Source: Candidatus Omnitrophota bacterium (lineage in GTDB: Bacteria; Hinthialibacterota; Hinthialibacteria; Hinthialibacterales; Hinthialibacteraceae). From it: 36,625 nucleotides of DNA. Shown piece by piece: positions 31,887 through 36,625 of this stretch (the stretch's first letter is position 1; each line of letters opens with the position of its first letter). A program made the translations under genes and the position numbers. Under the pieces are notes generated by a model. The model was not told the DNA's origin. It searched no databases and was given only the letters and a program-made list of their open reading frames with translations. The stretch is taken from contig JAFGTC010000080.1 of the NCBI GenBank assembly GCA_016934335.1, forward strand, positions 1-36,625. The letters run 5' to 3'.

Positions 31887-32218
31887 TCAGAGTGACGCGC
31901 AGGCGGCATAATGTACGCACAGGAGTTGGGGGAAAGCCGGTTGGGCAATGATTTTCTTGATTGGGGGGGAGATAACAGCGGAACTTGTGCGGGATTGCTT
32001 AAATTGATCCCAGATCAACCGGCAATCCATCTGAGTGAATCGTTCTTCCAGGCTTTTGCAGCCATTCAGTATGACTTTTTCATAATCCTTCTGTTCAAGA
32101 TTAGACGCCAAGGGAGTTGAGGGAAGCATGTGGGTGAGTGTTTTCCCCATGCTGGAGAATCCACTTTTCTTCCGGTTTCGCCGCCGTAAATCCCGGAAGA
32201 AGCGCTCCAATATATTAT
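31887..32218 (-). pseudogene. DDE transposase, C-terminal part, cut off by the recombinase element
   Basis: The minus-strand frame reads NNILERFFRDLRRRNRKK, then GKTLTHMLPSTPLASNLEQ and LEERFTQMD. This is the end of the transposase whose first part lies at 35613-36625 on the same strand. ILERFFRDLRR carries the third catalytic residue (E) of the DDE triad. The open frame extends rightward to 32261, but the bases after 32218 belong to the inserted element. Joining 32218 to 35614 gives PQRTNNILERFF without a frame change. Confidence 0.8.
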
Positions 32219-32241
32219 TGGATAGCATCATCAATTGCACC
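32218..32241. other. Left attachment site (attL)
   Basis: The core TTGG (32218-32221) is followed by 12 element bases and then ATTGCACC (32234-32241), the exact reverse complement of the arm at the right end. Left of the core is host transposase sequence. In the circle the two arms stand symmetrically, 15 bases from a central TT. Confidence 0.65.
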
Positions 32242-32527
32242 CTTACAGGGTGTTGAACCAAAGACTTTCAAAGTCACACATCCCTTTCACCCATTATATG
32301 GCCGTGAACTTGACTTGGTGATTCGCCGCAAAAATTGGGGAGAAGACCGAGTCTATTATCATGACGAAACAGGCAACCTCATTTCACTCCCAATCCAGTA
32401 TACAAGCGTAAAAGAGATTGATCCGTTTGTGGTAATTGCTGCAGGCCGATCTTTGTTTCGCTTCCAGGATTTGGTGAGTCTCGTTCGTGTAATCAAGGAG
32501 GAGAAAGGAAAGGAAGCGGAGAGATGA
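32219..32527 (+). CDS. DUF5372-like protein, body without its start
   Basis: The frame contains KVTHPFHPLYGRELDLV, RRKNWGEDRVYYHD, SLPIQYTSV, DPFVVIAAGRSLFRFQDLV. This is the DUF5372-type small protein that I recall as an accompaniment of recombinase elements; its function is unknown. The frame is open upstream into the host transposase (ATG at 32138), but no ATG or ribosome site lies inside the element. If the ends are joined in a circle, the ATG at 35599 with AAGGAGG ahead of it continues in frame as MKCNRWIASSIAPLQG into this body, giving a 107-residue protein. The stop is at 32525-32527. Confidence 0.7.
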   Translation, partial: WIASSIAPLQGVEPKTFKVTHPFHPLYGRELDLVIRRKNWGEDRVYYHDETGNLISLPIQYTSVKEIDPFVVIAAGRSLFRFQDLVSLVRVIKEEKGKEAER

Positions 32528-32674
32528 TAACGAATAGATGGCCCCAGAGGCGTAAATTAAATTATGTCATTAATGTAAATGGAAATATGCCGATATCCCA
32601 GTATGGTTTTTGGAGTACAAAGGATTAATTTGAAAAAAAATCAAATATAACAGATGGTATTTGAGAAATACGAC

Positions 32675-32702
32675 TTTACAAAAACGAGAAGTGTAACATA
32701 AT
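32675..32702 (+). promoter_or_regulatory. Promoter for the HTH-recombinase operon
   Basis: TTTACA (32675-32680) and CATAAT (32697-32702), each a 5-of-6 match, are 16 bases apart, 43 bases ahead of the HTH start. A TTTGA/TCAAA dyad around A7 stands just upstream (about 32628-32645) and could be an operator. The gap 32528-32744 is AT-rich and otherwise empty. Confidence 0.5.
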
Positions 32703-32744
32703 TATATTTACAGTCATGCCATCTTATTCCTCTGGAGGTCTTCG

Positions 32745-33227
32745 ATGTCTACTCGCAATCCTGCCGATGCCAAAAACCAAACTTTGCGCGAACAAGGAAC
32801 CCTCAATCCCCATCCCGAAACCGTACGCGATCCACTCTTCCTCGAAAACGATTTTTTTGATCCGAGAGATCTCATTCAGGTCAAGTACGAAATGTTGCGT
32901 CGAGTGCAAATCGAGGGGCAGTCCATTCAAGGCACAGTCCAGGACTTTGGCTTCTCTCGGCCCTCCTTCTACAAAGCCCAAGACGCTTTTGGGAAAGAAG
33001 GACTTCCCGGCCTTCTTCCCAGACGCCGGGGGCCCCAACGCGCCCACAAGCTTACCGAGGAGATCATGGAATTTATTGAGCAGACTTTGCGAGAGGAAGG
33101 TCCTTTGCGGGCGACGGCTTTAGCTCGACGGGTCGAAGAACAATTTGGTGTGCTCGTTCATCCACGCAGTATTGAACGGGGATTGACACGACGGAAAAAA
33201 AAACGACAGGAGGCAGAACGAGCCTAG
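32745..33227 (+). CDS. Helix-turn-helix protein of the recombinase element
   Basis: The protein has 160 residues and a strong GGAGG ribosome site (32734-32738). The region of about residues 45-85 is a transposase-type helix-turn-helix (VKYEMLRRVQIEGQS, TVQDFGFSRPSFYKAQ, then FGKEGLPGLLPRRRGP). A second helical unit follows (IMEFIEQTLREEGPLRATAL, then VHPRSIERGLTRR). It is probably a DNA-binding partner or regulator of the recombinase; such a gene commonly precedes recombinases of this type as I recall the arrangement. Near its end lies a run of nine As (33195-33203). In the reading frame given, the protein stops 24 bases later; one base fewer leads into the next ORF. Confidence 0.75.
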   Translation: MSTRNPADAKNQTLREQGTLNPHPETVRDPLFLENDFFDPRDLIQVKYEMLRRVQIEGQSIQGTVQDFGFSRPSFYKAQDAFGKEGLPGLLPRRRGPQRAHKLTEEIMEFIEQTLREEGPLRATALARRVEEQFGVLVHPRSIERGLTRRKKKRQEAERA

Positions 33228-33609
33228 GGAAGCATGGAAAGGTTTTTCCCAGCAAGACTTAGCGGCTTGCTACGAGAAACTCCGCAATCAAGTCCTGGGA
33301 AACGCAGTCTTTCCCTCAAGAGGTTTGGGGTGGGCGTTATTCATTCGAAAAGGAATGAAGGCGTGGATAGCCACTTGGCAGGAAAATATTCCTCCATTGC
33401 GGGCTATTCCTGCGAGCCAGTCCCCAAACGAAATTTCTCTGGGAGCGCATTTTTCCATTAGTGTGGCAACCTTGATAGCCAATATCATAACAACTCTTTA
33501 TCAGGAGGAGAACAATGGAGAGAGCCACTCATCAGAAAGTGACTTCCGATCATCTCAAACGCAATGCCTATCTTTACATTCGCCAGTCGACGGTGCGGCA
33601 GGTCTTTGA
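33204..33609 (+). CDS. Linking ORF without a start codon, reached by loss of one A
   Basis: The +1 frame after the A9 run is open to 33609 and reads REAWKGFSQQDLAACYEKL, then RNQVLG and GLGWALFIRKGMKAWIATW. The parts YEKLRNQVL and GLGWALFIRKGMKAWI look like a small protein that I recall between the HTH and recombinase genes of related elements. No ATG, GTG or TTG stands before YEKLR in this frame, so it would be made only as a fusion with the HTH protein, or it has lost its start. Its tail overlaps the recombinase start by 95 bases and includes the recombinase ribosome site. Confidence 0.5.
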
Positions 33610-34621
33610 AAACACGGAAAGCACGCAGCGCCAATACGCGCTTCGTCAACGAGCCGTGGCGTTGGGATGGCTCGCCGAACAGGTGGTTGTGATCGACTGT
33701 GATTTGGGGTATTCCGGTGGAACGACAGGCGACCGGCAAGGCTTTCAACAGTTGGTGGCGGAAGTGGGGATGGGAAAAGCCGGATTGGTGATGGGATTGG
33801 AAGTGTCTCGATTGGCCCGAAATTCCGCCGATTGGCACCGGTTATTGGAAATCTGTGGATTGACAGGGACTTTGCTCCTGGACGAGGATGGACTCTATGA
33901 TCCGCAGCATTTCAACGACCGTCTTGTGCTGGGACTAAAAGGAACCATGAGCGAAGCGGAACTGCACTTGTTGCGAGCCCGCTTGCATGGGGGGATTTTG
34001 AACAAAGCGGAGCGAGGCGAATTACGGATTACCCTTCCCATTGGATACGTGTATAACTCAGAAGGACGGGTTATCCTGGATCCGGACAAACAAGTGCAAG
34101 AAAGTATTCGAATGTTTTTTCAAACCTACCGCCGGCTAGGATCGGCTTGGAGAATGATTCAGACTTTTCACAAACAAGGTCTGTTATTTCCAAGGCGTGT
34201 ACGCTACGGGGCGAGGAAAGGGGATTTGGGTTGGGGAGAGTTGCAGTATTCCCAGGCGTTGTACATGCTTCATAATCCCCGATATACCGGTGCATTTTGT
34301 TATGCCCGAACTCGCACCAGAAAAAAAGTGGATGGAGGAATGGCGACCAAGCGATTACCGCCCGAAGAATGGCATACGCTCTTACGAGGAGCACACGATG
34401 CCTATATTTCCTGGGAGGAGTATGAAGATAATCAGCATCGATTACAAGAAACAGCCCAGGCTTACGGAAAAGACCGGTGGAAGAGTCCGCCTCGGGAAGG
34501 GCCAGCGTTGCTCCAGGGATTGGTGATGTGTGGTCAATGTGGACGAAGAATGACCGTTCGTTATCATCAACGGTCGGAAAAGTCGGTTCCCGACTATGTA
34601 TGTCAAAAAAAACCAGATTGA
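33515..34621 (+). CDS. Large serine recombinase, N-terminal part (catalytic domain, recombinase domain, half of zinc ribbon)
   Basis: The start has a strong AGGAGGAG site. The 368-residue frame has the resolvase-type catalytic domain: nucleophile serine 25 in YLYIRQSTVRQ, ESTQRQYALRQR, then GYSGGTTGDRQGFQQL and the arginine motif LEVSRLARNSADWHRLLE. The recombinase domain follows (LPIGYVYNSEGRVILDP, HNPRYTGAFCYARTR). Near the end comes the zinc ribbon half CGQCGRRMTVRYHQR and YVCQ. At an A8 run (34605-34612) this frame ends at TGA (34619-34621), before the fourth cysteine. Loss of one A joins it to the next frame without any missing residues. Alone it lacks the coiled coil that large serine recombinases need. 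Confidence 0.85.
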   Translation: MERATHQKVTSDHLKRNAYLYIRQSTVRQVFENTESTQRQYALRQRAVALGWLAEQVVVIDCDLGYSGGTTGDRQGFQQLVAEVGMGKAGLVMGLEVSRLARNSADWHRLLEICGLTGTLLLDEDGLYDPQHFNDRLVLGLKGTMSEAELHLLRARLHGGILNKAERGELRITLPIGYVYNSEGRVILDPDKQVQESIRMFFQTYRRLGSAWRMIQTFHKQGLLFPRRVRYGARKGDLGWGELQYSQALYMLHNPRYTGAFCYARTRTRKKVDGGMATKRLPPEEWHTLLRGAHDAYISWEEYEDNQHRLQETAQAYGKDRWKSPPREGPALLQGLVMCGQCGRRMTVRYHQRSEKSVPDYVCQKKPD

Positions 34622-35609
34622 ATATGGTGAATCGATCTGTCAACAAATACCGGGGGCAGAAATCGACGAAGCCGTGGGTAACCTTCTGGTGGAATCGATG
34701 ACACCTTTCACCTTGGAGATCGCCTTGCAGGTGCAGCAGGAATTGCAATCGCGAATGAAAGAAGCCGATCGATTGCGGCAAAAACAAGTGGAGAGAGCAC
34801 GCTATGAAGTGGAATTGGCTCGACGCCGTTATATGCAAGTGGATCCCGAGAATCGATTGGTCGCGGATGCGCTAGAAACAGAATGGAACGAGAAACTCAG
34901 AGCATTGGCAGAGACACAAGAAACCTACGAAAAACAGAGTCAAAATGATCGTCTCCTTTTGGACGAAACCCGGCGAGAAGAAATTATGGCGCTTGCTACT
35001 GATATTCCCCGGCTTTGGCATAATCCCCAGACTTCTCAACGGGAGCGCAAACGGATTGTTCGTCTGTTACTGGAAGATGTTACTCTCGTGAAGGATACTC
35101 AAATTCATGTTCACGTTCGCTTTAAAGGAGGAGGCATCAAAACATTGATTCTCGCGATACCATCTCCTTCTTGGAAAACATGGACAACGGATCCCAAAGT
35201 GGTCAAAGAGATTGATCAATTGCTGGACCATCATACAGAGAGTGAAATCGCCACGATTCTCAACCAACGGGGCTATCGTTCCGGGAAAGGACGGGTATTT
35301 GATACCATCTGTGTCGCTCGAATCCGCCAGTCCTATAAAATAAAAAAACGCGTTGATCGCCTAAAAGAAAAAGGTATGCTAACTCAAGAAGAGATGGCTA
35401 AACGACTTGCAGTGGGAACATGGAAAATCCGGGAGTGGCGCAACCTTGGGGTTTTGAAGGCTTATGCCTACAACGATAGGAATGAGTGTTTATATGAACC
35501 GCCAAGTACAAATTCGCCGATCAAAACGATGAAGCAAAACCTTCCGATAAAGAAACATTCTCCAGAGGTCTCTTCTGATTGTATGAAGGAGGTGCAATAT
35601 GAAGTGTAA
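34613..35609 (+). CDS. Large serine recombinase, C-terminal part in the +1 frame
   Basis: The frame continues the recombinase as NQIEYGESICQQIPGAEIDE, supplying the fourth zinc cysteine. A long helical coiled coil follows (VQQELQSRMKEADRLRQKQ, ARRRYMQVDPENRLV), then a C-terminal helix-turn-helix region (ESEIATILNQRGYRSGKG, TQEEMAKRLAVGTWKIREW). An ATG at 34596 could start it as a separate protein, but it has no ribosome site and lies inside the zinc ribbon. With the N-terminal part the total is about 700 residues, normal for the family. The stop at 35607-35609 overlaps the start of the DUF5372 gene (35599), which suggests coupled translation in the circle. Confidence 0.8.
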
Positions 35610-35613
35610 TCGT
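35586..35613 (+). promoter_or_regulatory. Ribosome site and first codons of the DUF5372-like gene at the right end
   Basis: AAGGAGG (35586-35592) stands 6 bases before ATG (35599-35601), followed by AAG TGT AAT CG and then the TTGG core. In the integrated state this start runs into antisense transposase sequence and stops at 35757. In the circle the next codon is TGG at 32219, which continues the DUF5372 frame. The ATG overlaps the recombinase stop. Confidence 0.6.
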
Positions 35614-35616
35614 TGG
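35591..35616. other. Right attachment site (attR)
   Basis: GGTGCAAT (35591-35598), 14 bases, then TTGG (35613-35616), after which host transposase sequence begins (TGCGCTGGGG). The arm is the exact inverse of that at 32234-32241. Confidence 0.65.
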
Positions 35617-36625
35617 TGCGCTGGGGCTGGATCATTACGATCCCCTGGGGCGCGGCGACGGGAATGGGATCGGCGAATAATTTCCCCCAATATTGATCGA
35701 TCTGCGCGACCATCTTTTTATAGGCCTTGTCCCACAGGAACCGCTTATCGGTTGTGATCCAGGTTCGAAACGCTTCCACGTTCTCTTGGATAGTGGATAC
35801 CGGCGTATCGTCCCCCCCATCATTCAAGCCCTTCTTCCCTTCCGGGAGCGCCAATCGCAAGGCGGAGCGAAGCGCATCAAAGACTTCAATCTTCTCTTCG
35901 ATTTTGGCTAAATGGACGAGCAAGTTTTCATTGTTAACGGTCTTTCGCAAGACATGGAGCATTCGAAAGAAGGGCCAATTGAAATCGAGATCCCTCTGGA
36001 AGGACGTAACCAACAGATCCCGCAGCGCCGATTCCAACGTATGCAACCGCTGCAGAAAGACGACATGCGTTCGATCGAAAGGAAAACCGTATCCGCCGAA
36101 TTGATCGACGGGATGAAGCGCCCAATGAAGTAAGGCATAGGTAAACGCGGCCGGGGTCTGTGCGAGCAAGGACTGGGAAGAACATCCCTCATTCAATCCC
36201 ATGAGAATCTCTTGAAAGACGCTCCGTTCCTCCCGGAACAGGGGCTCAAGCGTTTTGATGTAACTCCGGAGGGCCGTTCGAATCTTGAGCCGCCGCAACC
36301 CCTTTCGGATTTCATCATAATCTTTCTCGAGCAGATCGTTGCCGATGTCGCGCAGGAAATGGTAATGGCAGATGAAATCGGGGATGCCGGGAAACACTTC
36401 CTCAACGGCTTTGAGGATGCCAGTCCCCATATCGTGAACCAACGCGATCGGCGGGCCGTAGTCCCGCTGGACGCCTCGAAAGAATGACGCGATGGAGGCG
36501 GCGTTCTCGGAAGGATATTTGGCGCTGGCCAAAACGATGTTCGACAGGCCGTCCATGCCGGTGAACACATGGGGGCTGTCGCTTTCGCAGGTTCCATCCA
36601 CATGAAGGATATATCCCCCCTGAGA
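35613..36625 (-). pseudogene. DDE transposase, N-terminal and central part, interrupted by the element (runs off right edge)
   Basis: The minus-strand frame is open from the right edge (SQGGYILHVDGTCESD). It contains the first catalytic aspartate in HVDGTCE, the second in ALVHDMGTGILKAVEEV, and FPGIPDFICHYHFLRDIGND with the helical domain after it. The frame meets the element after MIQPQRTN; the rest of the gene is at 31887-32218. All three DDE residues are therefore present if the two parts are joined. The start of the gene lies beyond base 36625. I recognise a DDE transposase of the QRTNN-ILERFFR kind but do not name the IS family. Confidence 0.8.

Follow-up and report, generated by a model that had tools for sequence, protein, structure and literature searches.

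The window (the entire stretch of 36,625 nucleotides analyzed here) carries towards its end one copy, apparently of recent insertion, of a mobile element that is widespread and combines a DUF5372 gene, an HTH gene and a gene for a large serine recombinase. The features of the locus are as follows:

32218-35612, forward strand: whole integrated element, some 3.4 kb long, each junction having a TTGG (32218-32221 and 35613-35616)
32234-32527, forward strand: DUF5372 gene (Pfam PF17342, E 1.7e-21), found at the equivalent position in relatives
32745-33227, forward strand: HTH gene, with a zero-frame product of 160 residues (Pfam HTH_32 1.1e-10, HTH_28 2e-5)
33195-33203, forward strand: A9 run, the proposed programmed slippage site, with A6-A9 at equivalent codons in 38 of 38 non-actinobacterial elements and a bias in its lysine codons
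33204-33609, forward strand: frame of domain B, a conserved C-terminal extension of about 100 residues, +1 relative to the HTH frame, with its stop at 33607-33609
33515-34621, forward strand: N-terminal part of the large serine recombinase (Pfam Resolvase 1.1e-19, Recombinase 8.1e-11, Zn_ribbon_recom 1.6e-7, the last covering the first part of the ribbon)
34605-34612, forward strand: A8 run, which breaks the recombinase frame in the window copy only
34599-35609, forward strand: C-terminal part of the recombinase, with what remains of the ribbon and with the C-terminal half; all evaluable relatives have it in one frame with the N-terminal part
31887-32221, reverse strand: C-terminal part of the split transposase gene, from the rejoined ORF
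35613-36625, reverse strand: N-terminal part of the split transposase gene, from the rejoined ORF, with weak MULE and Transposase_mut matches and open at the contig end

Profile searches recovered the Resolvase, Recombinase and zinc ribbon domains of the recombinase, all with Pfam matches over the cut-off. These are the domains of the large serine recombinases XisF and CcrA/CcrB, and the best NCBIfam match is to XisF (E 7e-26, below the XisF cut-off). The HTH product, of which a 19-member alignment was made, is similar to the N-terminal half of the IS630 (NF033545, E 8e-12, below the curated whole-protein cut-off) and IS481 (2.7e-10) transposases. A scan for promoters and terminators around the HTH gene recovered nothing beyond chance level, and no standard start codon was seen for the DUF5372 gene within the element.

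When the flanks of the element are joined at their common TTGG, they yield a transposase frame of 447 codons without a stop (...QPQRTN-NILERFF...). This rejoined frame (31887-32221 plus 35613-36625, reverse strand) carries the motif QPQRTNNILERFF. Intact copies of the split transposase were looked for elsewhere and none was found, so that the reconstruction of the empty site rests on the joining of the flanks. Since the split gene is not decayed the insertion appears to be recent, and the recombinase, or one supplied in trans, was presumably functional at the time of insertion. The sequence ATTGCACC is present at both element ends (32218-32260 and 35590-35616) in inward-facing orientation, 12-14 nt from the TTGG junction, and these copies are possible half-sites of the recombinase. 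The element is single-copy, with no second copy in the host assembly; it was absent from 97 related genomes searched at E 1e-60, and a search of phage records for it recovered none.

The first-pass annotation of this DNA had singled out the A9 and A8 runs, and proposed that the loss of one A at each opens the downstream frame, that the two are independent cases of one mechanism acting in the same sense, and that this mechanism is transcriptional slippage yielding full-length recombinase at low level, with assembly error or decay as the alternative. Both runs lie where it placed them, in the HTH ORF (32745-33227) and the recombinase ORF (33515-34621) respectively. A one-base loss at A9 does open the frame through to the stop at 33607-33609, and a one-base loss at A8 leads into the frame 34596-35609, thereby completing the zinc ribbon and the C-terminal half of the recombinase. 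Comparison with relatives separates the two runs: we consider it likely that A9 is a conserved programmed frameshift site, probably operating by transcriptional slippage, and that A8 is a private defect or error.

The relatives come from several sources. One scan of GTDB genome contigs recovered 23 relatives of the recombinase, among which the whole DUF5372-HTH-recombinase array is present in L003-L011 and L017. Plasmid records contributed further members (450 with the recombinase, 132 with the HTH gene), from which 30 annotated regions were taken, and L051, L054, L055 and L056 were added from whole-genome searches and viral contigs. The resulting non-actinobacterial set comprises 38 elements (that of the window and 37 relatives), falling into 27 clusters at 80% HTH identity and spanning Chloroflexota, Acidobacteriota, Myxococcales, Bacillota, Desulfobacteraceae and the alpha-, beta- and gammaproteobacteria. 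In one Chlorohelix plasmid element (L028) the DUF5372 gene and the recombinase are kept, and the HTH gene was not found between them.

In all 38 non-actinobacterial elements a run of A's lies at the same codons, directly after the HTH_32 domain (R-K-K-K). Among the 36 elements tabulated, the window included, it is A9 in 17, A8 in 14, A7 in four and A6 in one, and it is again A9 in L054 and L055. The zero frame usually stops no more than a few codons away from the run, and domain B goes on in another frame, which is -1 relative to the HTH frame in 27 of the 38 elements and +1 in ten (including the window); in a single element B is in frame. Because all 37 non-actinobacterial relatives carry A6-A9 at this place, with B displaced or once in frame, the A9 run of the window is not a matter of chance. 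Runs of at least eight A or T are similarly concentrated there: the junctions of 37 elements account for 30 of them, and all other positions in 195 kb for 9. Within the run lysine is encoded by AAA and AAG in a ratio of 81:1, as against 71:183 in the rest of the HTH gene (Fisher 8e-34, a value that is indicative only, the sequences being related and the run having been chosen as the longest). In genes with a GC content of at least 60% the ratio is 66:1 in the run and 44:148 elsewhere; all these codon counts are tilted somewhat towards AAA, as the run was located by taking the longest stretch of A's close to the end of the domain.

The part downstream of A9 is real coding sequence, as had been suspected from the window alone: domain B is conserved, with a Y-E-x-L-R ... 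G-[ML]-x-x-W motif, and the dN/dS of its frame (0.26-0.58, in pairs with dS of 0.36-0.61) indicates purifying selection. Searches with B against Pfam and NCBIfam gave no real match, and its predicted structure consists of three helices at a mean pLDDT of 64, too weak for a fold search. The actinobacterial members (L031, L034, L037 and L068, from Rhodococcus and Streptomyces) do not have the run, and in them B is an overlapping ORF, which probably has its own or a coupled start. These exceptions suggest that the element needs B and can make it in either way, via the run or as a separate ORF.

The direction of the shift offers a clue regarding its mechanism. In the study of Antonov et al. 2013, the direction was constant in genes that rely on ribosomal frameshifting while poly-A transposase families showed both, and the authors read poly-A shifts in both directions as a mark of transcriptional realignment, the IS630 family having 495 cases at -1 and 185 at +1 (PMC3711429). 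The DUF5372-HTH-recombinase family likewise shows both directions, the shift not being fixed among homologs. Two further characteristics of slippage genes are present, namely a long run that non-identical homologs conserve where two frames meet and a downstream frame that is real coding sequence. Between close sister copies a single A is gained or lost while the adjacent bases stay unchanged, and the frame relation shifts accordingly: L059 and L085 have A9 with B at +1 as against A8 with B in frame in L039 and L084, and L066 has A8 with B at -1 as against A7 with B at +1 in L017. We infer that the frame shift is transcriptional rather than ribosomal. For comparison, three magnesium chelatase sites with 7, 9 and 11 A's gave 10, 40 and 63% frameshifting in E. 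coli. Slippage, as the first-pass annotation had proposed, is thus well supported for A9 with its conserved run and both directions of shift; the sense of that shift is the same as at A8 in the window, but most relatives need the opposite one at A9 and none of them needs a shift at A8.

An alternative in which ribosomes undergo programmed -1 frameshifting at the A run, in the manner of IS3 and dnaX, would accommodate the -1 shift needed in the majority of members, and A_AAA_AAN heptamers are indeed present in the A8 and A9 runs and in the A6GGGG of L009. However, canonical -1 frameshifting cannot produce a +1 shift, which the window and nine other members need, and the direction varies within the family. 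RNA folds of the 61 nt after the run, computed for four members, gave z values of -0.7, -1.7, 0.0 and 0.2, with no consistent stimulator. Overall, this alternative is unlikely. That B is instead a small gene in its own right, with an independent or coupled start, and that the A run is just a set of incidental lysine codons, would match the overlapping ORFs of the actinobacterial members, the plausible separate B start in several members with the run and the separate B ORFs annotated on some plasmids. It is made very unlikely by eleven members with the run (the window included) that have no ATG, GTG or TTG in the B frame from the run to the YEKLR motif; the B frame of the window is open from only 8 nt upstream of its A9 run. 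The run is, moreover, pure AAA in genes of more than 60% GC, where lysine elsewhere is mostly AAG.

The possibility that both runs are assembly or base-calling artefacts draws on the origin of the window contig from a fragmented assembly (316 contigs), and on signs that run-length error may exist in the family, the copies of Sinorhizobium medicae ml49 having A8 and an in-frame B where WSM1115 and S. meliloti 2011 have A9. Nevertheless, A9 with B displaced recurs across many separately sequenced replicons, including the closed replicons pNGR234a, pSymA of S. meliloti 2011 and that of S. medicae WSM1115, so that these runs are not an artefact as a class, and an error at both sites is extremely unlikely. 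For A8 taken by itself an artefact is possible. The two HTH copies examined in S. medicae ml49 (L039:2706-2713 and L084:1327-1334) both have A8 with B in frame, as against A9 in S. medicae WSM1115 (L085). The two ml49 copies are identical at 695 of 700 positions, and their A8 state may represent a true shortening that copying has spread, or else an undercall of the run length. The fused ml49 relative was dropped as proof of function, with both copies being A8 while other strains are A9 and an undercall being possible. The long HTH gene annotated in P. phenoliruptrix was likewise rejected as a fusion, as it represents a long zero frame.

The A8 run contrasts with the conserved site in the HTH gene. 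The ribbon is in a single frame in 39 of 39 evaluable relatives, in which the longest A run at this place is at most five, and hence A8 is not a feature of the family. The proposal of two independent cases of one mechanism accordingly fails, and relatives with continuous frames and no A run, which the first-pass annotation had itself named as evidence against slippage, are what the comparison of run lengths returned at A8. Since the window contains seven runs of at least eight A or T, a lone A8 is nothing unusual for a gene with a GC content of about 49%. Judged by these comparisons the break is either a one-base mutation of recent date or an error in base calling, private to the window copy; its freshness follows from the recent insertion of the element, with the transposase ORF rejoining cleanly. 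A selected role for A8, in which slippage would supply low-level full-length recombinase in this subfamily, could appeal to the productive slippage on eight A's that Baranov et al. 2005 inferred for some IS elements (PMC1088944), to the intact remainder of the recombinase and to the apparently recent insertion; yet with every evaluable relative continuous at the site and no second copy in the host genome it is decidedly improbable. According to Baranov et al. 2005, genes with frames broken at such runs may still give some product (PMC1088944), and it is possible that slippage at A8 could partly rescue the recombinase in an incidental manner; a selected function, by contrast, lacks support. The case serves as a warning that not every A run in a broken frame is recoding.

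Returning to programmed slippage at A9, the arrangement of the genes suggests a possible scheme of expression. Most expression would yield the HTH protein alone, while in a minority of cases the frame would shift at the A run, most probably by slippage of the RNA polymerase, to give the HTH protein fused to domain B. Ribosomes finishing B on the slipped messages could then reinitiate at the overlapping recombinase start, and the slip might thereby also set, in part, the dosage of the recombinase. The first-pass proposal of low-level recombinase through slippage would then hold in another form, through translational coupling via the HTH gene with its A9. In 29 of the 38 elements the stop of B and the start of the recombinase overlap by 1-16 nt, the overlap being 4 nt in 15 and 11 nt in 11 of them. 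Many recombinase starts are preceded by good Shine-Dalgarno sequences, so independent initiation of the recombinase is also possible and coupling need not be the sole route. In the window B ends 95 nt inside the recombinase gene and not at its start, and therefore the coupling may be weaker in this copy. Both the coupling to the recombinase and the functions given here to the two HTH products are thus proposals. A stronger version, in which slippage in the HTH gene meters the recombinase, with mainly slipped transcripts bringing ribosomes to it via B and the unslipped HTH protein restraining the element, is tentative, being plausible but short of probable. In L029 (2761-5055) and L030 (2614-5082) B and the recombinase share one frame, the recombinase gene being annotated from a start inside or before B; slippage in these elements would join HTH, B and recombinase in a single fusion protein.

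Among mobile elements, it is mainly in DDE transposases that programmed slippage is known. In the IS630 family (PMC3711429), too, an HTH half is followed by an A run, with the direction of the downstream frame varying by member, and L075, an IS630 element in a class-level relative of the host, has an A8 directly after its HTH domain. Unlike IS630, the HTH gene of the present family has no DDE catalytic domain after the run, only B with its roughly 100 residues and no Pfam or NCBIfam match, and the catalytic enzyme of the element is a separate serine recombinase. Given the similarity of the HTH half to the N-terminal halves of the IS630 and IS481 transposases, and the equivalent placement of the A8 in L075, the module of HTH domain plus run may have descended from an IS630-like ancestor.

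The family is also reminiscent of the IS elements with 9A sites (PMC1088944) in being mobile elements with A8 or A9 where two ORFs overlap, although the text of that paper mentions neither recombinases nor resolvases. Baranov et al. 2005 describe 9A slippage in IS elements of Mesorhizobium loti, the names of which are absent from the text (PMC1088944), and these elements could include the DUF5372-HTH-recombinase family. Among the papers covered, none was found that links programmed slippage to serine recombinase elements, and searches on DUF5372 and on gene names of pNGR234a recovered no useful paper. The novelty is nonetheless limited because of this possible overlap with the M. loti elements: it is that of a known device in a class of elements where no description of slippage was found. 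What appears to be new is the apparent conservation of a slippage device over many phyla in an accessory gene that lies upstream of, and overlaps, the recombinase gene; if true, unrelated recombination enzymes would share one route of throttling. The HTH-B protein is mostly absent from annotation, in which the HTH gene is given with or without a separate hypothetical protein. The IS630 transposases of relatives of the host (L073, L074, L075 and L080-L083) have A7 or A8 between their HTH and DDE halves, and their frames differ.
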